A DNA stretch of 64,000 bases from Ariolimax columbianus (Eukaryota > Mollusca > Gastropoda > Stylommatophora > Arionidae), in NCBI GenBank assembly GCA_036924085.1, contig JAVGWX010000011.1:30557886-30621885 (forward strand). Direction: 5' to 3'. This document shows, one piece after another, positions 1 through 64,000 of the stretch. Numbering within the stretch: position 1 is the stretch's first letter; each line of letters starts with the position of its first letter. Made by a program: the position numbers and the translations under genes. Below the pieces are notes generated by a model. That model did no database searches. It was given only the letters and a program-made list of their open reading frames with translations, and was not told the DNA's origin.

Positions 1-74
1 CTCTACAGTCATATGAGAACAGTTCTCGTGGCACTAGTCTGATGTTGTAACCGTCTTCTATTATTAGTGGTGGT

Positions 75-180
75 TGTAGTAGGCTGTAAACTACGACACA
101 GTACATTCTGTTCTCCGGACATCGTGCTACTTGCAAAGCTCTTTTCATGGCTTGGTAAACGAAGAAAAAGAGGAAGAAAT
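75..180 (+). mobile_element. S360 SINE-like repeat, copy A (3' half)
   Basis: First of eight copies in this window of a dispersed repeat that I call S360. This copy holds only the 3' third: the 'gctgtaaactacgacaca' block, the 'ttctccggac' block and the start of a purine-rich GAA-type tail. Full-length copies lie at 24850-25226 and 56533-56892. No coding capacity is seen. Confidence 0.8.
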
Positions 181-329
181 ATCATTAGCATTATCAATAT
201 TTTCTATCGGATCTTCATTTTAAAATCTTAAACCTGAAACTCCACCTCATTTCTTGTTTCTGTCAAATACATTTACCCGTTCGAAGCCAACTTTGCCACA
301 AGTTTTGTAACACGTTTCAAAATAAAACA

Positions 330-1490
330 AGGCCGTTGCTCTTGGCACGGTCGACCACGCCCCTCAAAAACCCCTCATTAATTAAACATTTCAGCACGTG
401 TCAGGCAGAAGAGTTCCTCTACATGCCGAGCAATCCAATGAAAGACAAATTTCAAAATTTAGCAATGGGAAGACTGAAAAGAAGTAGTTTTATGCATCAG
501 GCGAAACGACTTCGCAGGCAAATTATGGATTTACCTGAAGTTGACATCCCCCTAAAGTCTATGCCAGAACAAATTCCTTGGAGAGAGGAACATGGACTAT
601 CGGTATGCATTCAAACAAAAGTGAAAGGAATATTAGACAAGGATGGACAGAACAGTATGCAACGTAGGATAGTGACCCTCAGTTTCCTGGATGAAGAATA
701 CCCACAAGACCTCTGGATCAGAGTATACACAGATGGGTCAGCACAGAATGCAGTGAAGAACATAGAATACCCAACCAACATTAGGGATACAGACTGAGTA
801 CCAATGGGAAAATGTTGTCTAACATATGATGGTGACAATCAAGGTGACAACCGAGAAACTGTTGAACACCAATGACAATTCACAGCCTGTAGTATTTCTG
901 ACAGATGCATAATCAGCACTCCAAGCACTGAAATCTGAAAAACTTCCAGATCTACAGGCTCTACTGTCTGAACTAAGAAACTAGCGCACGATTGTCATGC
1001 AGTGGATACCTTCTCATTGTGGAGTACCAGGAAACGAGAGAGCAGATCGACTGGCAAGGGAGGGTGCTGCAGACGAGCATCCAGATGTGCCAGTTACATA
1101 CCAACAGAAGATAAGGATGATCAAATCAATCAGAAAGCCACCAACAGTAACACCAGACGATTACCATAACATGAACAGACAAGAGCAAACTGTTGTGTTG
1201 CGTCTTAGAACAGGACACAACCGACTCCGCAGCCACATGTACGCAAAAATGAAGATTGGCAACTCAGCCATGTGTACATGCGGGCAGGCGCCCCAGACAG
1301 CAGAGCACATACTGCAAAACTGCCCCGAATATGATATACAGAGAAAATCTCACTGGCCCATAGAAACAACACTGGAAGAGAAACTTTATGGGCATGTGTG
1401 TGAACTACAAAATTAAGTGAAGTTTATACAAGAGACAACATTACAGATATAGACAATATTTTAAAGCGAACGAAAGAAGAAGAAGCACGT
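330..1490 (+). mobile_element. I-like LINE fragment: linker plus RNase H, broken
   Basis: This is the 3' part of a non-LTR retrotransposon. Reading 336-797 carries the stretch before RNase H and its first motif (RVYTDGSA, about residue 130). Reading 892-1416 carries the next motif (VFLTDA), then MQWIPSHCGVPGNERAD, then a cysteine/histidine zinc-binding tail (CTCG...AEHILQNCP). RNase H removes the RNA strand during target-primed reverse transcription; it is typical of I-like LINEs. The copy is dead: the part between the first and second motifs is shortened and out of frame, and in-frame stops lie at 910-912 and 982-984. The 3' end is a short GAA run near 1470-1488, the usual simple tail of this family here. 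The sister copy is at 20745-21426. Confidence 0.88.
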
Positions 1491-1835
1491 GTGATTTAGT
1501 TCCCTGTGTTTCTATTCGGTTTGACTCAACATCCTGGTATAGAATGTGTCAATGTTTTTTATGGTTAAAAAAACCGAGTAAATCATTTTCACGTCTCAAA
1601 GAACATGCAGACAAAATGATATATACAACTCCAAGGAATGTTCGAGTGATCAGCCAGACGTGGAACATAATTATCTAACAATAAATGTTTGTTTTAACAA
1701 ATATTTTCTTCACGTTAAAGATTTACCTTTTTGGATTCTACTGGCAAGTGCATGCACTTTCCACCCAAGTCTGTAGTTTTAAGGTTATATGAAGAGGTAT
1801 TGGCCAGTGTTTGGATGCTTGCATGTAATTTATTG
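1491..1835. other. No feature recognised
   Basis: AT-rich, with stops in all frames at short spacing. I see no transposon motif or splice-like exon here. Confidence 0.5.
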
Positions 1836-1995
1836 TGTGTGTTCCAATGTAGCAGTGTTGCAGCGCATTCCACTTAATGTGTGGGGCGCGGTGTTGTGTG
1901 TGTTCCAATACAGCAGTGTTGCAGCGCATTCCACTTAATGTGTGGGGCGCGGTGTTGTGTGTGTTCCAATATAGCAGTGTTGCAGCGCATTCATT
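1836..1995. repeat. 61-bp tandem repeat, about 2.6 copies
   Basis: The block 'gttccaat.tagcagtgtt' recurs at 1841, 1902 and 1963, a period of exactly 61. Copies are nearly identical, so the duplication is recent. No coding role is apparent. Confidence 0.93.
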
Positions 1996-2590: not shown

Positions 2591-2611
2591 CCATAACACT
2601 GATTGAGAAAG

Positions 2612-3165
2612 CCTGTCCTATCTTATCTGTCCTACTTGAACTCTCTGTCCTATCTTATCTGTCCCACGTGAGCTCTCTGCCCTATCTTATCTGTCCCACT
2701 TGAACTCTCTGTCCTATCTTATCTATCCCACTTGAACTCTCTGTCCTATCTTATCTGTCCCACTTGAATTCTCTGTCCTATCTTATCTGTCCCACTTGAG
2801 CTCTCTGCCCTATCTTATCTGTCCCACTTGAACTCTCTGTCCTATCTTATCTGTCCCACTTGAACTCTTTGTCCTATCTTATCTGTCCCACTTGAACTCT
2901 CTGTCCTATCTTATCTGTCCCACTTGAACTCTTTGTCCTATCTTATCTGTCCCACTTGAACTCTCTGTCCTATCTTATCTGTCCCACTTGAGCTCTCTGT
3001 CCTATCTTATCTGTCCCACTTGAACTCTCTGTCCTATCTTATCTGTCCCACTTAAACTCTATGTCCTATCTTATCTGTCCCACTTGAACTCTCTGTCCTA
3101 TCTTATCTGTCCCACTTGAACTCTCTGTCCTATCTTATCTGTCCCACTTGAGCTCTCTGTCCTGA
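2612..3165. repeat. 32-bp minisatellite, about 17 copies
   Basis: Unit begins 'gtcctatcttatctgtccca' and ends 'cttgaactctct'. Starts at 2615 and 2647 fix the period at 32. Units differ by one or two bases (a/g in the gaactc/gagctc part). The origin of the unit is not recognised. Confidence 0.95.
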
Positions 3166-3578: not shown

Positions 3579-3589
3579 TTACCAACTGA

Positions 3590-6320: not shown

Positions 6321-6325
6321 CTTTC

Positions 6326-6447: not shown

Positions 6448-6469
6448 AAAACAGAACAAAAAAACTAAT

Positions 6470-7008
6470 TTGCCAAAAAGAGAGGAATATTTCAACAAAG
6501 AGACACAGTGACAATATACGAAGAGACAAAAGCAATCTATCGGCTACACAACAGAAGAAAATGTCATTTTTGTAATAAACTAAAGATTGGCACTACAGAC
6601 CTTTGTGGCACAGTCCATATGACAGCAGACGATTGGCACTACATACCTTTGTGGCACAGTCCGTCCATATAACAGCAGAAGATTGGCACTACAGACCTTT
6701 GTGACACAGTCCGTCCATATAACAGCAGAAGATTGGCACTACAGACCTTTGTGGCACAGTCCATATGACAGCAGAAGATTGGCACTACAGATCTTTGTGG
6801 CACAGTCCATATGACAGCAGAAGATTGGCACTACAGACCTTTGTGGCACAGTCCATATGACAGCAGAAGATTGGCACTACAGACCTTTGTGGCACAGTCC
6901 ATTTGACAGCAGAAGATTGGCACTACAGACCTTTGTGGCACAGTCCATATGACAGCAGAAGATTGGCACTACAGACCTTTGTGGCACAGTCCATATGACA
7001 GCAGAAGG
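6470..7008 (+). mobile_element. I-like LINE zinc-tail fragment, expanded to a 46-bp array
   Basis: Before the array the + strand reads as a decayed LINE tail with CHFCNKLKIGTTDLC followed by VHMTA. That is the cysteine/histidine segment after RNase H, compare HLFNKLKIGGTDKCTCG in the copy at 48735-50330. From 6582 this same segment is repeated about nine times with a basic period of 46 (ggcac at 6781 and 6827); some units carry a 4-bp insertion. The array ends abruptly at 7008. Nothing is intact. Confidence 0.82.
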
Positions 7009-9245: not shown

Positions 9246-9566
9246 TCCTCACTATAATCCTCATACAGCGCACATCACAAGACCGTCTGATGTTGCGTCC
9301 ATCATCGCTTCACGCAGGGCAATAACTTATACTTACTCTTGAATGCAAGTTGTGCAGTTCTGCTGATCATGGTTGTGCATATGGCTAGCAGCCTCATCAA
9401 ATACAACTAAGTGGCTAGATCATCACTACCACAAAACCACATGAATGTTTTGGTACAGGCTTCCTGTTAGGGGGGAAACTGTAGTGATAGACTTGTGCTA
9501 CTTCTTGATTTATAAGTATTAAATGATTGACTATCAAAACTAATCACCATTTTGATTTATTCTCAG

Positions 9567-10811
9567 GACATCAAACTCACTTCCGCGTCCATCGACTACA
9601 TTCAGTCATGCAGTGGCCACAGTCCTGAGGCAAGGGGACCCAACTCTCGTGACAAAGGGGGCACTGGGTCAGGGGAGAACACTCCTTGCTTTATGTACGG
9701 CGTCAGAATACGGAGCAGGAAAAGAAAACGTTTGCAAAGACCTGTTTCTACTTTTGAAAGTTCGACTTTGGATTTGATTTCGAGCGACGCAGGGGCAGAG
9801 TCCACAGCATTGAACAACGAGGACACGCGGGAACATAGGTTTATAAGTATTACTGAGGTTAGACCTCGCTTGAGCCATGGAGAACAAAGACCTTTGAGTG
9901 TGGTTGGGTCTAGACCTCGAACGAGCCATGGAGAACAAAGACCTTTGAGTGTGGTTGGGTCTAGACCTCGCTTGAGCCATGGAGAACAAAGACCTTTGAG
10001 TGTGGTTGGGTCTAGACCTCGAACGAGCCATGGAGAACAAAGACCTTTGAGTGTGGTTGGGTCTAGACCTCGAACGAGCCATGGCGAACAAAGACCTTTG
10101 AGTGTGGTTGGGTGTAAACCTCGCACGAGCCATGGCGAACTTAGATCTTTGAGTGTGGTTGGGGCTAGACCTCGCACGAGCCATCGTGAACTTAAACCTT
10201 TCAGTGCAGCTGAGGCTAGGCCTCGCACGAGCCTTGAAGAGCATAGACCTATGAATGTGGCTGGAGTTAGACCTCGCTCAAGCCATGGCGAACATATACC
10301 GTTCAGTTTAGCTCAGGCTAAATCTCGCACGAGTCAAGTTGAACTTATACCTCTGAGTGTGGTTGGGGATAGACCTTACAACGACACAGAAACTGAGCTA
10401 GATCAAGAATTCCAAGTGCATGGAAGCCGCTTCTGCTTGCCAAGAGCCCGCTCCATCCCACATCAGGATTGGGAAGATGAGATTTCAGAATCTACCAAGA
10501 AGATTCTCAGGGCGCAAACGACAGCACAGTCCGACAGGCGTCCTTCTTTGTATCAGTCATCTGTAGAAGTCATGAGCTCCCAGACGTCTAGAAATGTTCA
10601 AGATCTTTTACGTAAAATCCGAATTTCATCAACACCTATTGGGTCGAATATAGAGGATTATCCCACACATTCGGACAACATCGATAAGATTTATCCACCA
10701 ATGAAACCTGACATTTCTAGGCACGGTCTGGGGCGCAGAGCGACGCTGGTGGATATTCTTAAACACAGACAGAATTCGATAACGCCTAGATCTGCCACTA
10801 GTCAAAGATAG
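9567..10811 (+). CDS. Candidate gene 1, terminal exon (repeat-bearing hypothetical protein)
   Basis: This is a 415-codon open stretch (including the stop) entered through a good 3' splice site (TTATTCTCAG|GAC) and closed by TAG at 10809-10811. No ATG opens this frame upstream, which fits an internal or terminal exon. Residues 1-98 are polar and basic (RIRSRKRKRLQRP). Residues 99-268 are ten 17-residue repeats of the form RPRTSHGEQRPLSVVGS. The remainder is an acidic-then-basic tail without repeats (HQDWEDEISESTKKIL, RRATLVDILKHRQNS). It shows no signal peptide, membrane segment or catalytic motif. The protein is serine/arginine/proline-rich and probably largely disordered. Family not recognised. 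The single-copy, stop-free tail of more than 140 codons after the repeats is the main reason to believe it is real coding sequence. Confidence 0.65.
   Translation, partial: DIKLTSASIDYIQSCSGHSPEARGPNSRDKGGTGSGENTPCFMYGVRIRSRKRKRLQRPVSTFESSTLDLISSDAGAESTALNNEDTREHRFISITEVRPRLSHGEQRPLSVVGSRPRTSHGEQRPLSVVGSRPRLSHGEQRPLSVVGSRPRTSHGEQRPLSVVGSRPRTSHGEQRPLSVVGCKPRTSHGELRSLSVVGARPRTSHRELKPFSAAEARPRTSLEEHRPMNVAGVRPRSSHGEHIPFSLAQAKSRTSQVELIPLSVVGDRPYNDTETELDQEFQVHGSRFCLPRARSIPHQDWEDEISESTKKILRAQTTAQSDRRPSLYQSSVEVMSSQTSRNVQDLLRKIRISSTPIGSNIEDYPTHSDNIDKIYPPMKPDISRHGLGRRATLVDILKHRQNSITPRSATSQR
9861..10370 (+). repeat. 51-bp in-frame coding repeat, 10 copies
   Basis: Ten units of exactly 51 bp (17 codons) inside the terminal exon of candidate gene 1. 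Units 1-5 are nearly identical, units 6-10 progressively diverged, so growth has been at the 5' side. Frame is kept throughout. Confidence 0.95.
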
Positions 10812-14914: not shown

Positions 14915-15396
14915 TGCAGATCATTTAAAAATGATCGAGGTTTGAGTTGGTGACAGTCAAAGCGAGATCATTTAACCAATGATCGAGGTTTGAGTTGGTG
15001 ACAGTCAAAGCGAGATCATTTAACCAATGATCGAGGTTTGAGTTGGTGACAGTCAAAGCGAGATCATTTAACCAATGATCGAGGTTTGAGTTGGTGACAG
15101 TCAAAGCGAGATCATTTAACCAATGATCGAGGTTTGAGTTGGTGACAGTCAAATCGAGATCATTTAACCAATGATCGAGGTTTGAGTTGGTGACAGTCAA
15201 AGCGAGATCATTTAACCAATGATCGAGGTTTGAGTTGGTGACAGTCAAAGCGAGATCATTTAACCAATGATCGAGGTTTGAGTTGGTGACAGTCAAAGCG
15301 AGATCATTTAACCAATGATCGAGGTTTGAGTTGGTGACAGTCAAAGCGAGATCATTTAACCAATGATCGAGGTTTGAGTTGGTGACAGTCAAAGCG
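14915..15396. repeat. 48-bp minisatellite, about 10 near-identical copies
   Basis: Starts at 14951 and 14999 give a period of 48. Units are almost all identical (one g/t change near 15152), so amplification is recent or homogenised. Each unit contains a 7-bp inverted repeat, GATCATT...AATGATC, around TTAACC. The 155-residue minus-strand frame is a product of 48 being divisible by 3. Confidence 0.97.
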
Positions 15397-15534
15397 TATA
15401 CAACTCGGCAGTGGGTATTGCACAGTCACCTTAGTGGGTCCCAAACTGTTCTACTCCTGGTTATACCGTCAGGTATTCTATCGTCCCCGTAGTAAACTCA
15501 GTTATCAACAGTGTCACAAACGACTATGTATCAG

Positions 15535-16698: not shown

Positions 16699-17313
16699 AA
16701 GTGGGAGATTATAAACAAATAAAAAGGGGAGTGAGGAAAGGTTGTGTTCTATCCACTGACCCTGTTCTCTCTATACGGCGAGTTTATCTTGAGAGACATA
16801 GGGACAAATGCCAGGAATATCAATTGGCGGACAGAACATAAATAATCTACGATATGCTGAGGATATTGTATTGATAGCCCAGAATGAAACACCGTAGTTC
16901 AGCAACGGGAAAACAAAGACCTCAATTTAAATTCAAAGAAATCGGGGGATGATGGTAGTGACTAAGATACCTGACTCTACAGTATGCTGCGTCACAGTGA
17001 CGGGAACTGAACTGAGACAAGTTAACACGTTGAAATAGATGGGTAAATACATACCAACAGATTGAAGATGCAATCACGAAATAAAATGCAGAATAGATCA
17101 AGCTAAATCGGTCTTCCGGACATTGTAGGGAATATTGTGCAATAAAACATTGTCTCTGGAACTGAGAAAGAGAGTCCTTGAATGCTACTTGGAACCAGTA
17201 CAGACAAATGGCAGTGAATCATGGACAATCAGCAAGCATGCGCATATATCTTTGGAAGCAACGGAGATGTGGTTTTACAGAAGAAGGCTGCGGATCCCAT
17301 GGACTGCAAAGAA

Positions 17314-18005
17314 GACTGATGATACAGTACTCGAAGAGGCACAAACACAAAGAAGACTGATGATACAGTACTCGGGGAGGCACAAACACAAAGAAGACTG
17401 ATGATACAGTACTCGAAGAGGCACAAACACAAAGAAGACTGATGATACAGTACTCGAAGAGGCACAAACACAAAGAAGACTTATCATACAGTACTCGGGG
17501 AGGCACAGACACAAAGACGACTAATGATACAATACTCGGGGAGGCACAAACACAAAGAAGACTAATGATACAGTACTCGGGGAGGCACAGACACAAAGAC
17601 GACTAATGATACAGTACTCGGGGAGGCAAAGACACAAAGAAGACTAATGATACAGTACTCGGGGAGGCACAAACACAAAGAAGACTAATGATACAGTACT
17701 CGGGGAGGCACAGACACAAAGACGACTAATGATACAGTACTCGGGGAGGCAAAGACACAAAGAAGACTAATGATACAGTACTCGGGGAGGCACAAACACA
17801 AAGAAGACTAATGATACAGTACTCGGGGAGGCACAAGCACAAAGAAGGCTAATGATACAGTACTCGGGGAGGCACAAGCACAAAGAAGGCTAATGATACA
17901 GTACTCGGGGAGGCACAAACACAAAAAAGACTGATGATACAGTACTCGGGGAGGCACAAGCACAAAGAAGGCTTATGATACAGTACTCGAGGAGGCACGA
18001 AGACA
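17314..18005 (+). repeat. 41-bp minisatellite, about 17 copies, LINE-derived
   Basis: Unit starts 'gactgatgatacagtactcg' (17314, 17355, 17396). In the LINE frame the first unit reads TDDTVLEEAQTQRR, directly after IPWTAKK, so it is the element's own coding sequence amplified. The LINE resumes after the last unit with RQLIARIRTRQ. Subfamilies (gaagagg, ggggagg; cagacac, caagcac) form blocks. Confidence 0.95.
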
Positions 18006-18107
18006 ACTTATTGCAAGGATCAGAACAAGACAGTCATCCTGTGTTGGGGCATATTATGAGAAGAGGCGGCTTGAAGCTTGTTGTGACAACGGGATAGATA
18101 GTAGAAT

Positions 18108-20489: not shown

Positions 20490-20744
20490 GGGAAGAGGAG
20501 TCTATCGTCTGATCAGGCACAACATATTGATCATACTATGTTAGTCTGGGTCAGATTAACATACTGACCAATACCACATCTGACTTATACGCAGTTCTCC
20601 CAGGAAACGGGTTGTCTTATGACAGCTTGGTTAACGAGGTGGGGATTGATGCGATCCCCGTAGTTGTGAGCGACACACAGATAAAGCCATACAGCACAAC
20701 CGCATGGGAGATCCTGGTTCACCTTCATCGGCAGGCTCTGGATA
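20490..20744 (+). mobile_element. M36 element, copy 1 (short module block)
   Basis: M36 is a dispersed element named here. This copy starts with the shared 5' end (gggaag...ctgatcaggcac), has only 1.5-2 of the 36-bp modules, then the body ('ggaaacgggttg', 'atgacagc', 'aacgaggtg', 'gatccccgtagt', 'ggttcaccttcatc'). It runs into LINE RNase H sequence at about 20745, so its 3' part is missing. Confidence 0.8.
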
Positions 20745-21426
20745 CGCGGAATGCAACAGCAGCTGAGCAATCGGCGCAAGATTTTCATGCAGTGGATACC
20801 TTCTCAATGTGGAATATCAGGAAACGACAGAGCAGACCAACTGGCAAAAGGAGGGTGCTACATGCGAGCATCCAGATGTACAAGTTACATACCAACAGAA
20901 GATAAGTTTGATCAAATCAATCAAAAAGCCACCAACAGAAGATAAGTATGATCAAATCAATCAAAAAGCCACCAGCAGAAGATAAGGATGATCAAATCAA
21001 TCAGAAAGCCACCAATATACGATACGTATGATCAAATCAATCAGAAAGCCACCAGCAGAAGATAAGTATGATCAAATCAATCAGAAAGCCACCAACAGTA
21101 ACACAAGACGATTACCATAAGATGAACAGACAAGAACAAACTGTTGTGTTACGCCTTAGAATAGGACACAACCGAATCCACAGTCACGTGTACACACCAT
21201 TGAAGATTGGCAATTCAGATGCGTGTACATGTGGACATGCATCACAGACCGAAGAGCACATACCGCAGAGCTGCCCCGAATATGATATACAGAGAAAACC
21301 CCACTGGCCCATAAAAACAGCAATCGGAGAGAATCTTTATATGCAAATTACAAAAGACAGTGACGTTATACCAGAGACAACATTGCAGATATAAACAATA
21401 TTTTCAAGCAAACAAATAAAGAAGTT
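20745..21426 (+). mobile_element. I-like LINE RNase H copy 2, with internal 40-bp array
   Basis: Sister of 330-1490. Frame 20751 reads SNRRKIFMQWIPSQCG and DRADQLAK; from 21068 it continues NRQEQTVVLRLRIGHNRIHS and the zinc tail CTCGHASQTEEH. Between the two, the segment present once in the sister (accaacagaagataaggatg) is repeated five times. The 3' end (aacaaataaagaag) matches the sister near 1470 but its GAA tail is shorter. It lacks the N-terminal RNase H motifs. Confidence 0.88.
20891..21095 (+). repeat. 40-bp array, 5 copies, inside RNase H of a LINE
   Basis: Units start at 20891, 20931, 20971, 21011 and 21051. The equivalent place in the sister LINE (about 1102-1145) has a single unit, so this is a local expansion. 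Confidence 0.97.
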
Positions 21427-21734: not shown

Positions 21735-22260
21735 ACGTATAGATGCAATATATCTCCAACATTCTCTATCTCTGCCCGTGATGGTACACACAGACAATAG
21801 ATCTCCAACATTCTCTATCTCTCGCTCTGATGGTACACACAGACAATAGATCTCCAACATTCTCTATATCTCGCTCTGATGGTACATACAGACAATAGAT
21901 CTCCAACATTCTCTATATTTCGCTCTGATGGTACACAGAGAAAATAGATCTCCAATATTCTCTATCTCTGGCTCTGGTCGTACACACAGACAATAGATCT
22001 CCAACATTCTCTATATCTCGCTCTGATGGTACACACAGACAATAGATCTCCAATATTCTCTATCTCTGGCCCTGGTCGTACACACAGACAGACTGCTGCT
22101 AGTCCTTCGGTTGATGTTATTATCCCACTTGATCTCTGCCTACATTGTGCTCGCCTGCCGTCGACCTTTCCCTCTTGTTTTACAAGAGTGTCGTGTCTTT
22201 TAATGTGGCCCAAATATAAGATCTGTCAGCTTGTTATGGCTTTCAACAGTTTTCTTTTCA
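21735..22260 (-). mobile_element. LINE 3' end with terminal 49-bp array
   Basis: Minus strand reads LGHIKRHDTLVKQEGKVDGR then RQRSSG (compare HIKRH...GRGRP in other LINE ends here), then a segment WRSIVCV. That last segment (unit 'atagatctccaacattctct', starts at 21781 and 21830, period 49) is repeated about seven times. The end of the reading frame of this LINE group is normally a WRS-type motif, so the array is an amplified C-terminus. Confidence 0.82.
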
Positions 22261-24849: not shown

Positions 24850-25226
24850 AACGGGATCAAGATGCTGAGCAGCGCATGAGCTGCAGTAGTCAGCGACCCA
24901 TAGCTGACTGCTAGCGTCAGGGCCAGCGAACCATAGCGGCCAAGACCCTTCTACACCTCCACGCGGTGATCCTGGATTACAGGTTGCAGCAGGGAAGATT
25001 GGCTAAGAAGAAGTGATCTAAGAGGGAATGCTAACTCGGTACTCAAAAAATGCTTGCTGAAGTCGGATGTGTTGGACCAATAAATGAAAATATCGTAGTC
25101 AAGCTGTAAACCACGACACAATGCATTCCGTTCTCTGGACTACATTCTGCTATTTAAGCCCTTTCATGGTTTGGTAGTGGAAGATTGAGAACGAGCGAAG
25201 CCAAGCCAAGCCAAGCCAAGCCAGCC
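24850..25226 (+). mobile_element. S360, copy B, full length with 9-bp target-site duplication
   Basis: Complete S360: 5' 'ggatcaagatgctgagcag', 'acccatagctgactgctag', 'ggtgatcctggat', core 'tgctgaagtcggatgtgt', 'gctgtaaaccacgacaca', 'ttctctggactacattctgc', 'gattgagaacgagcgaag', then a (GCCAA)n tail. Flanked by AAAACAGTC at 24841-24849 and 25227-25235. It is non-coding, so mobilised in trans, presumably by a LINE. I see no convincing polymerase III boxes, so the class is uncertain. Confidence 0.9.
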
Positions 25227-34974: not shown

Positions 34975-35168
34975 TCAGATTCCTGACACTCACGACTACG
35001 GGGATTACGTCGATCCCACACCTCGTTTGCCAGGCTGTCATGAAAACAACCCGTTTCCACGGAGGGCTACTATGAAGCTGAGGTGAGGGTCTTGGTCAGT
35101 ATTTTTTGTCTAATCCTGACTAACATGTCTGATCAATATATTTTGTCTGACCAAACGTTAGTCTTCCT
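34975..35168 (-). mobile_element. M36 element, copy 4 (about 1.5 modules)
   Basis: Minus orientation: 5' end 'gaggaagactaacgtttggtc', about 1.5 modules, linker 'accaagaccctcacctcagc', then 'ggaaacgggttgttttcatg', 'acagcctgg', 'aacgaggtg', 'taatccccgtagtcgtgag'. The 3' part and tail are lost. Confidence 0.82.
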
Positions 35169-36605: not shown

Positions 36606-36967
36606 CGTAATGGAGAGATTTGAAACATTGTTAAAACAGGGCTGTACAGAACATATACATTTAAGAAGATTGTACCGGGTTAAAAACAGAGTACACTATT
36701 GTCTCATGAAGCGGCTGCATAACGCGTTTATTCAATGAGCAGCTCTGAATTTGAACACCACTTAAATGCTATACCGGATAGATTGAAACAAGCGGTAGAT
36801 ACCAAGTTAAGAGAAAGAAACGAACAGACAGGTTTCAGGAAAAAAAACAGATCATGCACAAACCAGATAGCCACGTTGTGCGTACATGCAGAGCAGCCAC
36901 TAGAATGGAATTCAAGTTGTGTACTTCAATTCTGCTGACTTTCAAAAGGCCATTGAGATCTTGGAAA

Positions 36968-37030
36968 GGGAAACTCTAACTTCTAGGGAAACTCTAACTT
37001 CTAGGGAAACTCTAACTTCTAGGGAAACTT
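36968..37030 (+). repeat. 18-bp repeat, about 3.3 copies
   Basis: Unit 'gggaaactctaacttcta'. The first unit continues the RT frame (ERETLTS); DRETL is the usual sequence at this point in related elements. Confidence 0.93.
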
Positions 37031-37454
37031 ACTAAAGCATTACAGCATCCCACAGAAGCTGACCAGCATAATTAAACACACGTACAAGGACATGGAGAGA
37101 AGAGTACAGCACGGCGGACAACTTACAGAATTATTTGACAGCATATATAGTATTCGTCAGGGATGTCTTTTTTTTATTAAACTTTTTTTATTCCATCCGG
37201 CAGTCGATTTGATTATTAAAGACACTACAGCCAATGAGAGAAATTAAATCCAGTGGACCGTGTTTAAAAAGCTGGATGACCTGGATTGTGAGATGGCATA
37301 GCCCTCGTATGTCATACCCAAGCCCAAATACAGAAGATAACGAAGCTTGAGACCGAATCTCTCAGCAAATAGGGCTTAAATCGTACTGGAAAGACAAAAA
37401 TGGAAAACACTAAATGCGGCACACAACACATCTCCTATATAACTGAGAGGAACA

Positions 37455-39207
37455 ACGATGGAGAAGGTAGAGAGCTTCACATACCTTGAGAGGAACATCA
37501 TTTGAGGAGGTAGAGAGCTTCACATACCTTGGGAGGAACATCATTGGAGGAGGTAGAGAGGTTCACATACCTTGGGAGGAACATCATTAGAGGAGGTAGA
37601 GACCTTCACATACCTTGGGAGGAACATCATTAGAGGAGGTACAGAGCTTCACATACCTTGGAAGGAACATCATTAGAGGAGGTAGAGAGCTTCACATACC
37701 TTGGGAGGAACATCATTAGAGGAGGTAGAGACCTTCACATACCTTGGGAGGAACATCATTAGAGGAGGTAGAGAGCTTCACATACCTTGGGAGGAACATC
37801 ATTAGAGGAGGTAGAGAGCTTCACATACCTTGGGAGGAACATCATTAGAGGAGGTAGAGAGCTTCACATACCTTGGGAGGAACATCATTAGAGGAGGTAG
37901 AGAGCTTCACATACCTTGGGAGGAACATCATTAGAGGAGGTAGAGAGCTTCACATACCTTGGGAGGAACATCATTAGAGGAGGTAGAGAGCTTCACATAC
38001 CTTGGGAGGAACATCATTAGAGGAGGTAGAGAGCTTCACATACCTTGGGAGGAACATCATTAGAGGAGGTAGAGAGCTTCACATACCTTGGGAGGAACAT
38101 CATTAGAGGAGGTAGAGAGCTTCACATACCTTGGAAGGAACATCATTAGAGGAGGTAGAGAGCTTCACATACCTTGGGAGGAACATCATTAGAGGAGGTA
38201 GAGAGCTTCACATACCTTGGGAGGAACATCATTAGAGGAGGTAGAGAGCTTCACATACCTTGGAAGGAACATCATTAGAGGAGGTAGAGAGCTTCACATA
38301 CCTTGGGAGGAACATCATTAGAGGAGGTAGAGAGCTTCACATACCTTGGGAGGAACATCATTAGAGGAGGTAGAGAGCTTCACATACCTTGGGAGGAACA
38401 TCATTAGAGGAGGTAGAGACCTTCACATACCTTGGGAGGAACATCATTAGAGGAGGTAGAGAGCTTCACATACCTTGGGAGGAACATCATTAGAGGAGGT
38501 AGAGAGCTTCACATACCTTGGGAGGAACATCATTAGAGGAGGTAGAGAGCTTCACATACCTTGGGAGGAACATCATTAGAGGAGGTAGAGAGCTTCACAT
38601 ACCTTGGGAGGAACATCATTAGAGGAGGTAGAGAGCTTCACATACTTTGGGAGGAACATCATTAGAGGAGGTAGAGAGCTTCACATACCTTGGGAGGAAC
38701 ATCATTAGAGGAGGTAGAGAGCTTCACATACTTTGGGAGGAACATCATTAGAGGAGGTAGAGAGGTTCACATACCTTGGGAGGAACATCATTAGAGGAGG
38801 TAGAGAGCTTCACATACTTTGGGAGGAACATCATTAGAGGAGGTAGAGAGGTTCACATACCTTGGAAGGAACATCATTAGAGGAGGTAGAGAGGTTCACA
38901 TACCTTGGAAGGAACATCATTAGAGGAGGTAGAGAGCTTCACATACCTTGGGAGGAACATCATTAGAGGAGGTAGAGAGCTTCACATACCTTGGAAGGAA
39001 CATCATTAGAGGAGGTAGAGAGCTTCACATACCTTGGGAGGAACATCATTAGAGGAGGTAGAGAGCTTCACATACCTTGGAAGGAACATCATTAGAGGAG
39101 GTAGAGAGCTTCACATACCTTGGGAGGAACATCATTAGAGGAGGTAGAGAGCTTCACATACCTTGGGAGGAACATCATTAGAGGAGGTTAGAGACCTTCA
39201 CATACCT
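37455..39207 (+). repeat. 43-bp minisatellite, about 41 copies, LINE-derived
   Basis: Unit 'gaggtagagagcttcacata' then 'ccttgggaggaacatcatta' and 'gag'-type joint; starts at 37681 and 37724. It encodes EVESFTYLGRNII, a conserved LINE motif after the RT core. Variants (gaccttc, gaggttc, ttggaagg, tactttgg) recur in patterns, suggesting multi-unit duplications. The largest array in the window. Confidence 0.97.
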
Positions 39208-39348
39208 TGAAAACCAGATAAGACAGGGGCTGCAGATGGGGATGGAAAAGCCAAGAAACAAAAGGCAAAAGGGGCATTTGTCTTGTTGAAGAACAAATGG
39301 AACTCTAAAATGGCCAGAATGTATACCGAACTAAGGATTTCCAATGCC

Positions 39349-39606
39349 AATGTGAAGTCGGTCATTCTATATGAAACTCAATGTGAAGTCGGTCATTCTA
39401 TATGAAACTCAATGTGAAGTCGGCCATTCTATATGAAACTCAATGTGAAGTCGGCCATTCTATATGAAACTCAATGTGAAGTCGGCCATTCTATATGAAA
39501 CTCAATGTGAAGTCGGCCATTCTATATGAAACTCAATGTGAAGTCGGCCATTCTATATGAAACTCAATGTGAAGTCGGCCATTCTATATGAAACTCAATG
39601 TGAAGA
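39349..39606 (+). repeat. 31-bp minisatellite, about 8 copies, LINE-derived
   Basis: Unit 'aatgtgaagtcggccattct' plus 'atatgaaactc' (39351, 39382). It encodes NVKSVILYET, equivalent to NVKSVLLYG in related LINEs, in its correct place after KNKWNSK. Confidence 0.97.
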
Positions 39607-46289: not shown

Positions 46290-46978
46290 ATTTGTGAACA
46301 AAACTATTGAATTTAATCAGGCGCAGAACATCGTCTTTGTAGACCAGGAGAAAGCTTTTGACTAAGAGGACATAAAAACAAGCGATAGGAGATCCTAGAA
46401 AACTATGCACTGCAAGGACAATTATTGAAAAATCGAATAGCAATGTTTAAAACAGCCGCTGTACTGCCGGAACACCAAGCGGACTCGCTAAGTGGTTTGT
46501 AGTTCAGACAGAGATGTGTACTATCACAACTTTTGTTCATTGTATACATAGATCACATAACAACTGAAGCAAACCCAGACCACCACAACGAACGAGCTCC
46601 TTTTTACAGATAATCAGTCTCTTTAATTCCGATGAACAAAACCCCATAGAACATCTCAATGTCACTGACAATGCTTGCGATAGATATAATATGAGGATTA
46701 GTACAGCTAAGAGGCAATGAAAATAAGCAGAATAGAGAAAACACTAAATATACAGATAACAAGTAAAGAGATTAAACAAGTCAGTGAATTCAAATACTTG
46801 GGCAGATGGAAGGCATAGATAGAGATGTGGAATGAAGAACACAGAAAGTTAGTGCGGTTTCCTATCAACTTTCACCATTACTAAGATACAAACCCATTCC
46901 AATTAAGACAAAGAGACAATAAAATAATAAATTGAATTAAAATACTAATAAATAGTATTTTTATACCAAATCTCTGGG
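46290..46978 (+). mobile_element. LINE-D reverse transcriptase, 5' part (left of M36)
   Basis: Reads IVFVDQEKAFD (motif A), RQRCVLSQLLFIVYIDHIT, then EKTLNIQITSKEIKQVSEFK then YLGR, then QKVSAVSYQLSPLLRYKPI and FIPNL. Stops and frameshifts are many. The frame stops at 46978 where an M36 element begins and resumes at about 47783. Confidence 0.82.
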
Positions 46979-47782
46979 AAGGTAGACTAACATCTGGTCA
47001 GGCACAACATACTATCAGACATGTTAGTCAGGGTCAGGCACAACATACTATTAGACATGTTAGTCAGGGTCAGGCACAACATACTATCAGACATGTTAGT
47101 CAGGGTCAGGCACAATATACTATCAGATATGTTAGTCAGGGTCAGGCACAACATACTATCAGACATGTTAGTCAGGGTCAGGCACAACATACTGTCAAAC
47201 ATGTTAGTCAGGGTCAGGCACAATATACTATCAGATATGTTAGTCAGGGTCAGGCACAACATACTATCAGACATGTTAGTCAGGGTCAGGCACAATATAC
47301 TATCAGATATGTTAGTCAGGGTCAGGCACAATATACTATCAGTCATGTTAGTCAGGGTCAGGCACAAGATACTATCAGACATGTTAGTCAGGGTCAGGCA
47401 CAATATACTATCAGATATGTTAGTCAGGGTCAGGCACAACATACTATCAGACATGTTAGTCGGGGTCAGGCACAACATACTATCAGACATGTTAGTCGGG
47501 GTCAGGTAAAATATACTGGCCAAGACCCTCATCTCGGCTTCCTCGCAAACCTTCCTGGAAACGGGCTGATTTCATGACAGCCTGTCTAACAAGGTGGGAG
47601 ATCAAGGCGAACTCCGAAGTAGTGAACGGCACGCAGATGAAGTCAAGAATATCAACCGCTTAGAGGACTCCGGTCCACCTTCATCAGCACGCTCGGAATG
47701 TGAGGAAAGCTACGACAGCTACGACTTAACGTCCATTTCAGGGCTCACAAATGGGGAATCATACTCAACAATAGCAGCTCTC
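46979..47782 (+). mobile_element. M36 element, copy 6, bounded by its host LINE
   Basis: About 15 modules of 36 bp (unit 'gtcaggcacaacatactatc' plus 'agacatgttagtcagg'; 46985-47520), linker 'tggccaagaccctcatctcg', body 'ggaaacgggctgatttcatg', 'acagcctgtctaacaaggtg', 'ccgaagtagtgaacggcacg', 'ccaccttcatcagcacgctc', 3' block 'ccatttcagggctcacaaa', end 'tactcaacaatag'. The LINE-D frame continues on both sides, so the ends are known to a few bases. No long open frame of its own: non-autonomous. Confidence 0.85.
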
Positions 47783-48220
47783 CGCTACCAGTGTCAGGCA
47801 TGGAATCTCTCAGCAAGGCAGGTATAAGATAGAAAAATGGTGGTTGGCGAAATGAGGTGTTTGAGAAAGGCTGTAGGGGTCACGTGGCTGGACAGAGTAG
47901 GAAATAAAGATATCAGACAGAAGGTGGGTGCAACACCGTGCATGGAAACAGAGAAAGGCAAAGAATAAAATGGTTTGGACACCTGACAAGAATGCAACAG
48001 AAGTTACCAGCTGCTCGCATCTACAATACCAGACATCAGGGTTGCAGAGCAAGAGGCAGACCACGTAAAAGATGGATAGATGATGTCAGTGAGACACTGA
48101 AGAAATAAGGAAGGGCAATAACATCGGCGATAAAGCTGGCACACGACAGAAAACTTCACCTCCCCACGTCGTCTAGCGACTCAAGTGGATAGAAGTTGAT
48201 GATGATGATGATGACGACAT
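47783..48220 (+). mobile_element. LINE-D C-terminus and 3' end (right of M36)
   Basis: Resumes with LRYQCQAWNLSARQV, then GEMRCLRKAVGVTWLDRVGN, IKWFGHLTRMQQKLP, ARGRPRKRWIDDVSETLKK, then LAHDRKLHLPTSSSDSSG, and a (GAT)n tail at 48196-48215. Sister of the minus-strand copy at 62640-63870. Confidence 0.88.
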
Positions 48221-59130: not shown

Positions 59131-59760
59131 TATGGACTCGAACGTCTTAATTTTAATACCTCATAGCATTCTGAGATGCCTTTATTTGTTGTTCTTTTAT
59201 GTTCCCAAAGAATCGACATCACTGCACTCCGGGCATACCAATAGCTTCTCACTCTCTCTAAATAAATGGCAAAGCGTGGAGATACTGATGATTCTTGCAG
59301 TTTGTTGGTTATACACACTTTTGCTCCGTCCTCTCTTGCGCATCAGTCGACGAACCTCTTTTGATTTCAAAGCTTTGCATTTTGTCATTTGTTTGTTCAC
59401 CTATTGCAGTGTCATCATCTATCAGATGGTCATCGGTGGACTTCAGAATGTTACTCCTGTCCATGTCTGCTGTACCAGTAATTGATTCATGTGAAGTCGA
59501 GATGTCAGTTCTTTCATTGTCCTGGACACCAGATTGAAAATGGCATTCTTGACAAGCCCCGGCAAGTGGGATGTTTCTAAATCTGCCATCCACTCATGTC
59601 TAAATTAGCCCTTGTTCATCTTCCGAACTAAGGATTGTGTATCTGAAAGGTTGGCTGTACCTGTTAAATACGTCTCAGATATCCATCTCAGAGCTGCAGA
59701 CACTGCTTCCATCTCCATTCTCGCTCTGGAGAAATCGTGTTCTGCTTGCCCGCTAAGCTC
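59130..59760 (-). mobile_element. I-like LINE, RNase H to C-terminus
   Basis: Minus strand: SRARMEMEAVSAALRWISET then YLTGTANLSDTQSLV, where the glutamate and the SD aspartate are RNase H catalytic positions. Then (59593-59309) GVQDNERTDIS, ESITGTADMDRSNILKSTDD, then VYNQQTARIISISTLCHLF and VCPECSD, a zinc-type tail. Several frameshifts. Its 5' side runs directly into the 38-bp array. Confidence 0.75.
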
Positions 59761-60425
59761 GGTGACAGCCTGACCTCTTCTGTTTGCCCGCTATGCTCGG
59801 TGACAGCCTGACCTCTTCTGTTTGCCCGCTATGCTCGGCAACAGCATGACCTCTTCTGTTTGCCCGCTATGCTCGGTGACAGCCTGACCTCTTCTGTTTG
59901 CCCGCTATGCTCGGCAACAGCCTGACCTCTTCTGTTTCCCCGCTATGCTCGGTGACAGCCTGACCTCTTCTGTTTGCCCGCTATGCTCAGGAACAGCATG
60001 ACCTCTTCTGTTTTCCCGCTATGCTCGGAAACAGCTTGGCCTCTTCTGTTTGCCCGCTATGCTTGGCAACAGCATGACCTATTCTGTTTGCCCGCTATGA
60101 TCGGCAACAGCTTGACCTCTTCTGTTTGCCCGCTATGCTCAGGAACAGCATGACCTCTTCTGTTTGCCCGCTATGCTCGGCAACAGCTTGACCTCTTCTG
60201 TTTGCCCGCTATGCTCGGCAACGGCTTGACCTCTTCTGTTTGCCCACTATGATCGGCAACAGCTTGACTTCTTTTGTTTGCCCGCTATGCTCGGTGGCAG
60301 CCTGACCTCTTCTGTTTGCCCGCTATGCTCGGTGACAGCCTGACCTCTTCTGTTTGCCCGCTATGCTCGGCAACAGCTTGACCTCTTCTGTTTGCCCGCT
60401 ATGCTCGGTGACAGCCTGGCCTCAT
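59744..60425 (-). repeat. 38-bp minisatellite, about 18 copies, LINE-derived
   Basis: Unit (+ strand) 'tgcccgctatgctcggtgac' plus 'agcctgacctcttctgtt' (59761, 59799). On the minus strand the last unit runs in frame into the LINE as VTELSGQAEHDFSRARMEME, so the unit is the RNase H segment just before the catalytic glutamate. Confidence 0.93.
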
Positions 60426-61392: not shown

Positions 61393-61848
61393 TTTATTCT
61401 TCGTCGTCGTTCGTTCTCAATCTACCGCTACCAAGCCTTGAACGTTCTCAATCTCCCGCTATCAAGCCCTGAACGTTCTCAATCTCCCGCTACCAAGCCC
61501 TGAACGTTCTCAATCTCCCGCTACCAAGCCCTGAAATAAGCGTTCTAAGTAGCAGAATGTAGTCTAAAGAACGGAATGAGCTGTACCGTAGTTTACAGCT
61601 TGACTGCATTTTTTGCACCTTTCGGTCCGAGACATCCAACTTCATCAGGCATTTTTTGTACCGGGGCAAGCCTTTCCTCTTCAATCCTTTCTCCTTAGAC
61701 ACTCTGCCATGTTGCAGGCTGTTATTCAGGATCACCAAGCGGAGATGTAGAAGGGTCTTGACAGCTCTGGTTTGCTGTCCCTGATGCTATCAGTCAGCTA
61801 TGGGTCGTTGACCGCTGGAACGCATGCACTGCTCAGTCACGTGATCCC
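61393..61848 (-). mobile_element. S360, copy G, near full length, with internal 31-bp array
   Basis: Minus strand from 'tgggatcacgtgactgagca' to the 3' end. The 3' segment 'gttctcaatctcccgctacc' plus 'aagccctgaac' is present four times (61410-61532), once in other copies. Core 'gatgaagttggatgtctcgg' slightly mutated. Confidence 0.88.
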
Positions 61849-62145
61849 ATATGCTTTCATTTGATTTCGTATATTGAAGTCCTCAATAGTTTCACTTACG
61901 GCACTAAATTGTAGCGTTAAACACTTTACTTAATCGCCTAATTGTGTTTACTAGATTATAGACTCTAGATTGTTAATTTTAATTGCTAAATTGTAGATTC
62001 GAGCAGCTCCATTTCATCTATTTAATTATATACCAAAACGCCTCAATTTAAGTAAGCAAATTTAAAATTTAGGCGTCTTCATTTTAATGAGTAAATATTA
62101 GACTCAAACACGCCTGTTTCATTTACTAAATATAAACTCGAAACA
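61849..62145. repeat. Continuation of the AT-rich 35-bp satellite
   Basis: Diverged units such as 'actaaattgtagcgttaaac' and 'taaatattagactcaaacac'. Interrupted by S360 copies on both sides. Confidence 0.65.
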
Positions 62146-62569
62146 CTGTGATCCTGGATAACCGGCTGCAATAGAGCAGACTGGCTAAGGAGAAGGGAGG
62201 GCAGACTGGCTAAGGAGAAGGGAGGGCAGACTGGCTAAGGAGAAGGGAGGGCAGACTGGCTAAGGAGAAGGGAGGGCAGACTGGCTAAGGAGAAGGGAGG
62301 GCAGACTGGCTAAGGAGAAGGGAGGGCAGACTGGCTAAGGAGAAGGGAGAGCAGACTGGCTAAGGAGAAGGGATGGAAGAGGGAAGGCTAACCCGGTACT
62401 CAAAAAATACTTGCTGAAGTCGGATGTGTCGGACCGAATTGTGCAAATATCTCAGTCAAGCTGTAAACTGCGAAACAACGCATTCCGTTTTCTGAACTAC
62501 ATTCTGCTACTTAAGACCTTTTAAAGGATCGGTAATGGGAGATTGAGAACGAACGAAGCTAAGCCAAGC
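62146..62569 (+). mobile_element. S360, copy H, 5' truncated, with internal 25-bp array
   Basis: Starts at 'gtgatcctggataaccggct'. The segment 'gcagactggctaaggagaag' plus 'ggagg' is repeated eight times at 62176-62375, once in other copies. Then core 'tgctgaagtcggatgtgtcg' and the usual 3' end. Confidence 0.92.
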
Positions 62570-62639
62570 ACACTATCTTAATTTCATTTGTAAAAATTGT
62601 AGCGTAAAGCGACGTCGTTTCATTTACAAGATCGTATAT

Positions 62640-63870
62640 TCATCATCATCCTCATCCTTATCATCATCGTCTCTCCACTTGTGTCGTTAGACCACATAAA
62701 GAGGTGTAGTTTTCTGTCGTGTGCCAGCTTTCTCACTGATGTTGTTGTTAATCCGTATATCAACCATGAAACGATCTTTCCATCTGTTTCTTGGTCTGCC
62801 TTTGGCTCTGGAACCCTGATGTCTGGTATTGTAGATACGAGCAGCTGGTAACTTTGGTTCTTGTCAGGTGTCCGAACCATTTTATTCTCTGTGTTTCCAT
62901 GTATTCCATGCACAGTGTTGTACCCACCTTCTGTCTGATTACTACGTTTCATACTCTGTCCAGCCTTGTTACCCCGACAGCCTTGTTACCCCGACAGCCT
63001 TGTTACCCCAACAGCCTTGTTACCCCGACAGCTTTGTTACCCCGACAGCTTTGTTACCCCGACAGCTTTGTTACCCCGACAGCCTTGTTACCCCGACAGC
63101 CTTGTTACCCCGACAGCTTTTTTGTTACCCCAACAGCTTTGTTACCCCAACAGCTTTGCTACCCCGACATCCTTGTTACCCCGACAGCTTTGTTACCCAG
63201 ACAGCTTTGTTACCCCGACAGCTTTGTTACCCTGACAGCCTTGTTACCCTGACAGCTTTGTTACCCCGACAGCTTTGTTACTCTGACAGCTTTGTAACCC
63301 CGACAGCCTTGTTACCCCGACAGCCTTTGAGAGACACCTCATTTCTCATACCATGATTTTTCTGTCTCGTGCCTAGTTGAGAATCTATGTCCGTGCTCTA
63401 GATTCCACCTCTCAATCTAACATTGTATCTTGTTTGAACATGCTGTCCAAGTATTTGAATTCATTGACTTGTTTAAGTTCTGTAATTTGTACCTGTATAT
63501 TTCGTGTTTTATCTATTCCACTGACTGTCATTGTCTCCGTCGTTGATGTGGTAATCCTCATATTATATTTATCGCAGGCATTGTAAAGAGCAATTATATG
63601 TTTTTGGAAATTATTTTCATCGGAATGAAAGAGGCTCTGATCATCTGTTAAAAGTGGCTCGTTCTTTGAGTTGGTTTCTGGTTTTGCTTCAGTTCTTATT
63701 CGATCCATGAATACAATGAACAAAAGTGGTGATACACATCCCTGTCTTAACTGCAAACCACTTAGTGAGTCCGCTTGGTGTTCCCACAGTACTTCGGCTG
63801 TTTCTGTACATTGCTATTATATTTCTCAATAATTGTCCTTACATTCCATAGTTTTCCAGATTACTTTACT
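62640..63870 (-). mobile_element. LINE-D copy 2: RT, 17-bp array, C-terminus
   Basis: Minus strand. 63756-63412: LRQGCVSPLLFIVFMDRIRT, LLTDDQSLFHSDE (catalytic box ADD changed to TDD), then ITELKQVNEFKYLDSMF. An internal deletion joins this to EMRCLSKAVGVT, whose KAVGVT codons begin the array (62963-63335). Then a decayed GTTLCMEYMETQRIKWFG and LAHDRKLHLFMWSNDTSGE, ending in a GAT-type tail near 62645. Sister of 46290-48220. Confidence 0.88.
62963..63335 (-). repeat. 17-bp minisatellite, about 21 copies, LINE-derived
   Basis: Unit (+ strand) 'cagccttgttaccccga' or 'cagctttgttaccccga'. On the minus strand it is the codons for AVGVT with one extra residue, at the exact place of AVGVT in LINE-D. 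The sister LINE (near 47860) has it once. Units differ by c/t (gcctt/gcttt) and a few others. Confidence 0.95.
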
Positions 63871-64000
63871 TTACCAGAGTCAACCACTTAAATTTTAGCT
63901 ATTTCATTTACGTCTCAAAAACAGTCATTTCATTTGTTAAAGTAAAGGTTCGTTTTTCTCTATTTATTTAACTCAGTTGTAGATCCATCCACGTGGGTTT
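63871..64000. repeat. AT-rich satellite remnant at window end
   Basis: 'tatttcatttacgtctcaaa' and 'tcatttgttaaagtaaaggt' resemble the 35-bp satellite unit. The field probably continues beyond the window. Confidence 0.5.

Follow-up and report, generated by a model that had tools for sequence, protein, structure and literature searches.

Minisatellite arrays made of transposon slices and their recurrence in the genome of Ariolimax columbianus

Minisatellites derived from transposable elements (TEs), and TE hotspots for them, are already known from the human genome (PMC3389668). In the survey of Ahmed and Liang (2012), slices of TEs, mostly Alu, ERV and L1, made up 23% of the minisatellites surveyed, the arrays grew locally after birth, hotspots such as AluS were described, and the LTR12 arrays were interpreted as spread by transposition (PMC3389668). 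The same survey found direct repeats of 5-20 bp flanking 300 of 7,276 cases and left about 94% unexplained (PMC3389668). Haber and Louis (1998), as relayed in PMC6947457 and PMC3389668, described repeats of 5-10 bp that flank the minisatellite founder. End-joining of staggered breaks, reported for induced breaks in mouse cells, gives small in-place tandem duplications with little or no microhomology (PMC5730883). Among 56 reptile genomes, portions of a retroposon have become tandem arrays more than once, giving SINE-derived satellites with a link to subtelomeres (PMC10702118), and the LTR retrotransposons of Lathyrus carry short internal arrays that are part of the element and expand at some loci (PMC7004042).

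The arrays described here were found in a window of 64,000 nucleotides, the whole stretch of DNA analysed. They are like the human TE-derived minisatellites in consisting of TE slices, in local growth and in hotspots, and they differ from those that the survey describes in that their slices come from coding parts of LINEs and from a non-coding retroposon, with one junction recurring at many loci (PMC3389668). As with the reptile satellites, parts of a dispersed retroposon are present as arrays more than once, here in one genome (PMC10702118). As reported for Lathyrus, short arrays lie inside TE copies and are expanded at some loci, whereas the LINE copies chosen by their flanks mostly hold one unit here (PMC7004042). 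Minisatellite birth from TE slices is a known kind of event, which seems to be unusually frequent in the present genome.

TRF returned 56 rows in the window, which were merged into 44 arrays of 14,688 bp. Thirty-four of these are minisatellites, covering 12,504 bp or 19.5% of the window, and the other ten (2,184 bp) are micro- or simple repeats. Ten simulated windows from a first-order Markov model held one 36-bp array in total, and the minisatellite arrays of the window are real; the coordinates given in the first-pass annotation agreed with TRF to about 15 bases. That assembly error multiplied single units is very improbable, since variants are present among the units within arrays and array lengths vary between loci. 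Minisatellites also made up about 11% (bootstrap 5.6-16.6%) of 86 kb adjoining element copies at 29 other places; the load of the window is about twice that figure and is therefore not purely a local oddity.

The unit lengths in the window ranged from 11 to 63 bp (sd 12.6), with a ceiling of about 63 bp though TRF allowed 500, and in a genome sample from outside the window 27 of 31 arrays likewise had units of at most 63 bp. The preferred loop size proposed by the first-pass annotation was not borne out, because none is sharp. The unit lengths of TE and non-TE arrays in the window were indistinguishable at low power (KS P 0.38, n 11 and 23). No common core motif was detected among 30 units for k 5-8 (P 0.38 to 1.0), and clustering of arrays along the window was not significant (P 0.15). 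Among 15 arrays, adjacent units were more similar at uncorrected P < 0.05 only in those at 17307 (0.003) and 37447 (0.016). The view that transposons are the favoured target found no backing: with the incomplete annotation of the window, 11 of 34 arrays lay within annotated TEs, which make up 36% of the array-free DNA (P 0.72), and 8 of 34 within LINEs, whose share is 27% (P 0.85). Within the window, this is the outcome that the first-pass annotation had named as refuting its account. A special tie of arrays to transposons is not supported. The earlier account is thus upheld in part, in that the arrays are real, are collinear with their hosts and fit growth in place, and is not supported on the TE tie and the preferred size.

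The LINE-related features of the window are as follows.

984..1482, plus strand: unexpanded sister LINE copy of T1, aligned with 20774-21424 to the left and to the right of the array
6583..7007, plus strand: 46-bp array within the RNase H region of a LINE; P0001 and P0006 align to both flanks
17307..18006, plus strand: 41-bp array in the C-terminal part of a LINE; both flanks collinear with P0082 and P0083
20891..21098, plus strand: T1, 40-bp array with 5.2 units, within the RNase H region of a LINE
21746..22090, minus strand: 49-bp array, placed where a minus-strand LINE frame ends; P0101 88-175, E 1.5e-7, one flank
36967..37029, plus strand: 18-bp array, the third array of the LINE copy that holds those at 37447 and 39348
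37447..39209, plus strand: 43-bp array of 41 units, a LINE slice directly after the reverse transcriptase
39348..39605, plus strand: 31-bp array in the LINE copy shared with the 37447 array, LINE on the left flank only
59740..60423, minus strand: 38-bp array, putative, with an RNase H-like frame by eye only
62961..63329, minus strand: T2, 17-bp array within a LINE whose unexpanded sister occupies 46395-46805 and 47891-48217

Eight arrays had been claimed as LINE slices, and for seven of them the claim stood, with support from both flanks in five and from one flank in two. The eighth, 59740-60423, was assigned by eye only and had no Pfam match and no match among the 167 proteins searched. Two-flank support came from tblastn for 6583-7007, 17307-18006 and 37447-39209, and from nucleotide alignment to an unexpanded in-window copy for 20891-21098 and 62961-63329, the last of which adjoins an RVT_1 match (E=4.8e-6) under Pfam's cut-off. 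The 37447-39209 array is collinear with P0168 (left flank 25-175, right flank 160-231), which was the single match of the chimeric protein query; 36967-37029 sits between two P0168-aligned stretches, the left one weak (E 2.1), and the 39348-39605 array leaves a 10-bp remainder, CAATGTGAAG, at its ends. A LINE endonuclease said to adjoin 35525-35817 was not confirmed, as no relevant Pfam match was found there. The unit is part of a TE in the seven LINE arrays (protein or nucleotide search, at least one flank) and in the arrays at 61412 and 62176, and a position in place within a TE is indicated by both flanks in five LINE arrays and by sister comparison in five families.

Outside the LINEs, the following features bear on the argument.

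2613..3163, unstranded: 32-bp unattributed array, private; all 15 of its 15 junction matches in the genome lie inside the array itself
14918..15396, unstranded: 48-bp unattributed array, private; all 9 of its 9 junction matches in the genome lie inside the array itself
24853..25193, plus strand: single-copy copy of the non-autonomous element, whose family has 6,737 first-look candidates
46996..47517, plus strand: T5, the M36 array (36 bp), which belongs to a non-coding family with dispersed copies
61412..61535, minus strand: T3, 31-bp array that forms the end of one copy (61412-61848) of a non-autonomous element
62176..62380, plus strand: T4, 25-bp array inside another copy (62148-62565) of the same element

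The element of T3 has six single-copy sisters within the window, and the M36 family has one-unit copies at 20513-20546 and 35116-35152. The first-pass annotation had also placed arrays in non-coding elements, correctly for the M36 arrays; its S360 copies G and H matched nothing by name. The two slices of the non-autonomous element (61412-61535 and 62176-62380) and the array at 36967-37029 had been overlooked.

Comparison with unexpanded sisters showed length gaps of whole units in five of five families, within 1-3 bp. The gap was 160 bp for T1 (4 x 40), 343 bp for T2 (20 x 17 + 3, one unit having three extra A), 175 bp for T4 against four of four sisters (7 x 25) and 467 bp for T5 against both one-unit copies (13 x 36 - 1). 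For T3 it was 93 bp (3 x 31) to one sister, and 97 bp to two sisters before an anchor was corrected by hand. The arrays of these five families fit in-place growth by whole units after birth. Remainders of at most 4 bp from a whole number of units were not in significant excess (P 0.10, 12 TE arrays). Reinsertion of circles or rolling-circle products at random places by a single mechanism, as had been suggested, would agree with the similar unit sizes of arrays of unrelated sequence; it is disfavoured by the whole-unit gaps to sisters in all five sister families and by the register of the arrays with the host element, and we consider it hardly credible.

The founders differed in their direct repeats. 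The sister of T1 carries ACCAACAG twice at a spacing of 40 bp, an 8-bp overlap with a chance rate of 0.0001, and the sister of T2 carries GGCTG twice at 17 bp, a 5-bp overlap with a chance rate of 0.0065. At unit spacing, the 25-bp founder has no more than 3 matching bases and the 31-bp founder no more than 2; as read at the junction itself, the numbers are 1 and 0. The 25-bp family has a 4-bp repeat spaced at 21 bp. The repeat of the 36-bp founder is imperfect, and that of the 43-bp slice is weak at 43-bp spacing, where its median rank over 10 single LINE copies was 5.5 among 53 lags. Flanking direct repeats of 5-10 bp were thus seen at the 40- and 17-bp founders and were absent from the 31- and 25-bp ones. 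The first two sisters are like the origin of Haber and Louis as relayed in PMC6947457 and PMC3389668, whereas the 25-, 31- and 43-bp cases depart from it. End-joining duplications as described in PMC5730883 fit the founders of 0-1 bp, but alone they do not account for the repeated junction.

Junction patterns were searched in the own genome of 2.29 Gb, with reversed patterns as controls. Each of the four TE-slice arrays examined recurred elsewhere. For three of them the evidence was the junction pattern, with 2,275-3,183 matches against 0-5 in the controls, and for one it was sequence. With up to 2 mismatches allowed, the T1 junction was matched 2,275 times against 5 for its control, and the 17307 junction 3,183 times against 0; with up to 1 mismatch allowed, the T4 junction was matched 2,776 times, also against 0. 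The first 100 exact places of the 17307 junction fell on 17 loci, counting the window. For the T4 array itself there were 528 candidates, and the 40 that were scored gave 127 matches. The junctions of the two unattributed arrays had no second place at up to 2 mismatches in the 2.29 Gb. Because TE slices recur as arrays elsewhere, the TE arrays are not scattered random births, and the idea that whatever sequence is met can seed an array holds for the two private non-TE arrays and is contradicted in part by the four TE slices. A view from the window alone, that TE arrays were private to single copies, was overturned by this recurrence.

At all 20 loci selected through the array, the 43-bp slice was an array, and among 40 LINE copies chosen by flank it was single in 28, an array in 4 and without a recognisable unit in 8. 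A seed array born once per TE family source copy, spread by transposition and later expanded or contracted, is possible, though we would not presume it. It is the reading given to the LTR12 arrays and to the arrays in plant LTR elements (PMC3389668, PMC7004042), and the 25-bp array agrees with it: its junctions are identical at many loci nearly without founder overlap, a single clade was not rejected (p-AU 0.31, 25 copies, star-like tree), and of 18 loci fetched 17 have element sequence next to the array, 14 of them on both sides. On the other hand, for the 43-bp LINE array a tree of 34 copies rejected a single clade of array-bearing copies (p-AU 0.0004) and showed at least 10 changes, the array-bearing element copies are mutually no closer (0.796) than to the single copies of the window (0.810), and coding LINE units of 40, 41 and 43 bp would disrupt the frame unless the extra units are a multiple of three.

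Gene conversion or ectopic recombination could also carry arrays between dispersed TE copies, keeping units alike while flanks drift. The consensus units of the 25-bp array are near-uniform over 18 loci with flanks mostly 71-89% identical to the reference copy, and the 43-bp units do not track the flank subfamily (P 0.22). But these loci had been selected for the similarity of their units, and such a selection could by itself give uniform units, and two flank-chosen arrays, L097 and L098, have copy-specific unit changes (L097 is of 41 bp, with a 2-bp deletion in every unit read), which argue for local turnover; this transfer is improbable.

The explanation we favour, and regard as an even call, is in-place birth with whole-unit growth, where any DNA seeds once and certain TE slices are predisposed to repeated birth. 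We infer a birth step, together with its enzymes, in which a stretch of 11 to 63 bp would be duplicated in tandem, with 0 to about 10 matching bases at the join. The duplicate would then enlarge by whole units, via slippage or unequal exchange; the whole-unit growth itself was seen in five families. The private arrays suggest that any DNA may seed once. In the TE families, predisposed slices would become arrays at many loci, with the same junction where examined, while most examinable copies stay single. The LINE arrays would come mainly from repeated birth at fixed slip points within dead copies, and for the non-coding element a seed inherited by transposition is at least as likely as repeated birth. 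This explanation is favoured by the whole-unit gaps, the 8- and 5-bp founder overlaps above chance, the recurrence of all four TE slices beside the two private arrays, the 28 single copies among the 40 flank-chosen ones, the rejected 43-bp clade, the changes in L097 and L098, and the 13 upstream flanks of 25-bp loci, among which no similarity was found. It is weakened by the weak 43-bp direct repeat, the 25- and 31-bp founders nearly without overlap, the units that do not track their flanks, the 25-bp single origin that was not rejected and the remainders; that some sets of array-bearing loci were picked by array similarity also counts against it. Birth sites fixed by sequence in the LINE and retroposon families, so that the same 25-43 bp slice is duplicated repeatedly at the same junction in separate, mostly dead copies and flanking direct repeats are not predictive, are a tentative proposal, which we place somewhat short of probable.

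The start of minisatellites is largely unexplained, as the human survey accounted for only 6% of its TE-derived cases (PMC3389668). A genome with many expanded and unexpanded copies of one sequence makes the founder, junction, overlap and age measurable case by case. If the birth sites are sequence-fixed, thousands of junctions in one genome would make the rule of where minisatellites are born readable.

The arrays of the window, designated here by unit length or window start, are real: TRF gave 56 rows that merged into 44 arrays, 34 of them minisatellites covering 12,504 bp (19.5% of the window), and ten Markov windows used as a chance comparison yielded one 36-bp array in total. The window occupies C11:30557886-30621885 of a 2.29 Gb genome (401 contigs). 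Elsewhere in the genome, an 85,860-bp sample, consisting of DNA adjoining 29 element copies outside the window, contained 31 minisatellites at 11.0% coverage (bootstrap 5.6 to 16.6%), with at least one at 14 of the 29 places, a median unit of 31 bp and 27/31 units of at most 63 bp; the window cut in the same manner gave 19.9%. Among 120 arrays in the window and the other loci L012-L060, 88 had no partner among the fetched loci. Unit sizes in the window averaged 35 bp (sd 13) and spanned 11 to 63 bp, a spread that does not fit a sharp form of the preferred loop size proposed in the first-pass annotation, and TE and non-TE arrays could not be told apart by unit length (KS P 0.38, at low power). 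No common motif beyond chance was found among the array units. The anticipated excess over the TE share was not seen in the window, where TE made up 36% of array-free DNA and contained 11/34 arrays (P 0.72), and LINE 27% and 8/34 (P 0.85), on a hand-made annotation of LINE homology and families repeated in the window from which further TE will be missing; the TE count left out array 21746 and took in the unconfirmed 59740, and exchanging both made no material change. Within the window, neither a TE preference nor a sharp unit size was detected.

The arrays were attributed by comparing LINE proteins from database searches against the window; the better matches, at identities of at most 54%, were mostly to gastropods where an organism was named (Littorina, Plakobranchus, Elysia, Candidula, Bradybaena). 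LINE sequence in correct order lay on both sides of arrays 6583, 17307 and 37447 in the protein comparison, arrays 20891 and 62961 had unexpanded sister copies inside the window at the nucleotide level, and arrays 21746 and 39348 had LINE support on one side. Thus, of eight arrays initially read as LINE slices, five were supported by both flanks and two by one, but 59740, RNase H-like by eye, was confirmed by neither the protein comparison nor Pfam searches. Arrays 61412 (31 bp) and 62176 (25 bp) derive from slices of a non-autonomous element, sister copies of which hold the slice once elsewhere in the window; the earlier view also named non-coding elements as hosts. The element copy with the 31-bp array lacks the 25-bp array, and vice versa. 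One LINE copy at 36967-39605 bears three different arrays (18, 43 and 31 bp). An inverted pair of LINE fragments, 30348-31271 and 31399-32324, is 95.6% identical over 929 aligned columns; other pairs of repeats in the window are much less alike.

Growth in place by whole units would make array length minus sister length a multiple of the unit. The difference was 160 = 4 x 40 for the 40-bp array (one sister), 343 = 20 x 17 + 3 for the 17-bp array (one sister), one unit of which has three extra A, 175 = 7 x 25 for the 25-bp array (4/4 sisters) and 467 = 13 x 36 - 1 for the 36-bp array (2/2 sisters). For the 31-bp array, far anchors sitting past a variable stretch gave 96 to 101 over six sisters; nearer anchors in three sisters gave 93 = 3 x 31 in one and 97 in two, because in the expanded copy the right anchor word is found a second time four bases further on, and both values were set to 93 by hand, the remaining three sisters being seen in alignment alone. 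The array was absent from the corresponding place in 14/14 sister comparisons, in which some element copies were used twice. The suggested collinearity with the host was borne out, as LINE order is kept across 6583, 17307 and 37447 and sisters differ by whole units. Register with the host, length differences in whole units and recurrence are the features shown directly.

The unexpanded sister of the 40-bp array carries ACCAACAG twice at 40-bp spacing, and that of the 17-bp array carries GGCTG twice at 17-bp spacing; random founders overlap by at least 5 bp in 0.65% and at least 8 bp in 0.01% of cases. At unit spacing the 31-bp sisters had at most two consecutive matching bases (0 at the junction by our reading) and the 25-bp sisters at most three (1 at the junction by our reading), and of the two 36-bp sisters one had 8 bp at a spacing of 37, the other 4 bp at a spacing of 38. 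The 40- and 17-bp founders may have been born by slippage at short repeats, and those with 0-1 bp by end-joining of staggered breaks (excerpt of PMC5730883), after which arrays would grow by slippage or unequal exchange. In the 41-unit array the starting units are more diverged than the middle ones, a pattern expected from exchange. Array length modulo unit was at most 10 bp in 11/12 TE arrays by looser scoring (expected 4.3, P 5e-5) and 9/12 by strict scoring (P 0.005), the twelve including 59740, whose LINE origin is unconfirmed; the counts were 7/16 and 5/16 for other arrays (expected 5.2), and 18 (P 0.0007) and 14 (P 0.05) for all 28. When arrays were counted whose remainder was no more than 4 bp away from a whole unit number, neither TE (6/12, P 0.10) nor other arrays (7/16, P 0.11) showed a significant excess.

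Recurrence was examined for four TE arrays and two unattributed arrays. The 43-bp array had 227 matching places, clustered at unit-length spacing (40 of 218 candidates scored). All 20 loci fetched from this search bear arrays of 39 to 46 bp, 16/20 having period 43 with alike unit starts and ends; at least one LINE flank matched at 18/20, with none at locus L055 and just a 26-bp wrong-way match at L058. Many more unrelated arrays adjoin the 43-bp array at L048, L053, L056, L060 and other fetched loci. The 25-bp array had 127 matching places (40 of 528 candidates scored) and was present at 18/18 loci picked from array matches, with element sequence on both sides at 14, on one side at three (two cut by the stretch edge) and on neither at one (L113); the 13 upstream flanks showed no likeness, and one pair of the 17 downstream flanks had 46 bp in common. 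Its junction gave 2,776 genome matches at up to one mismatch, against 0 for the reversed control, and 20 loci on C1 and C3 account for the first 100 exact places. In the family of 62176-62380, junction variants with AGG- or AGA-ending units occur in different loci and at times mixed within one array. Two loci with the 25-bp array, L107 and L114, carry downstream sequence like the 31-bp slice (61412) at its junction, as if this slice recurs as well. With up to two mismatches allowed, the 40-bp junction had 2,275 matches (5 for its control), and in its first 100 exact places 8 loci had at least two exact junctions; the 41-bp junction had 3,183 (0 for its control), its first 100 exact places including 17 loci, the window among them. 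In C3:99655192-99814345 the exact 40-bp junction occurs singly at seven places on one strand, at intervals of ~19-53 kb, an arrangement suggestive of a large segmental duplication in tandem. Seeding from any sequence, as first supposed, agrees with the unattributed 32- and 48-bp arrays, whose junction matches (15/15 and 9/9) all fell inside the arrays themselves, but four of four TE slices tested recur elsewhere.

The recurring arrays could have been born repeatedly or inherited. A search with LINE flanks only was run so that loci were not picked by the array; among the best 40 of 216 candidates the 43-bp slice was single in 28 (in L088 as a unit-like match displaced by 203 bp), lacked a recognisable unit in 8 and formed arrays in 4 (the window, L043, L097 and L098). 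The right flank (139 bp) served for a tree of 34 copies (14 array and 20 flank-chosen, four of the latter without the slice; 7 array copies with too short a flank left out), on which a single clade of array copies was rejected (p-AU 0.0004) and at least 10 changes were needed. Flank identities were 0.678 among array copies, 0.745 between groups and 0.823 among others, differences due partly to the selection of copies. The units of L097 and L098 also have copy-specific changes. Two observations speak against repeated birth: LINE copies have a weak direct repeat at 43-bp spacing (in 10 copies its median rank was 5.5 of 53 lags), and the units do not track their flanks (P 0.22). In coding LINE sequence, units of 17, 31, 40, 41, 43 and 46 bp keep the reading frame only when the number of extra units is divisible by three, so that array-bearing source LINEs are unlikely, though not impossible. 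The clade rejection, the unit changes and this frame argument together make us lean to repeated birth for LINE slices. The 25-bp tree (15 array and 10 single copies) was star-like and did not reject a single clade (p-AU 0.31), with element identities of 0.796 among array copies and 0.810 to window singles.

Two open frames contain repeats:
9531-10808, plus strand, 426-aa open frame with in-frame 17-aa (51-bp) repeats
14928-15425, minus strand, open frame of 16-aa repeats spanning the private 48-bp array
The first had no Pfam match, and the Pfam matches of the second look like repeat-driven noise. The 48-bp units are nearly identical (TRF 99% matches), so this array is probably recent.

The TE-slice arrays belong to a known phenomenon. 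Excerpts of the literature describe TE-derived minisatellites, AluS hotspots among them, and LTR12 arrays interpreted as spread by transposition (PMC3389668), satellites derived from SINEs (PMC10702118) and arrays expanding inside plant LTR elements (PMC7004042), and the subject has been reviewed (PMC6947457, PMC9659126, in part). What would interest specialists is how dense the arrays are and that junctions recur within slices of coding LINE sequence.
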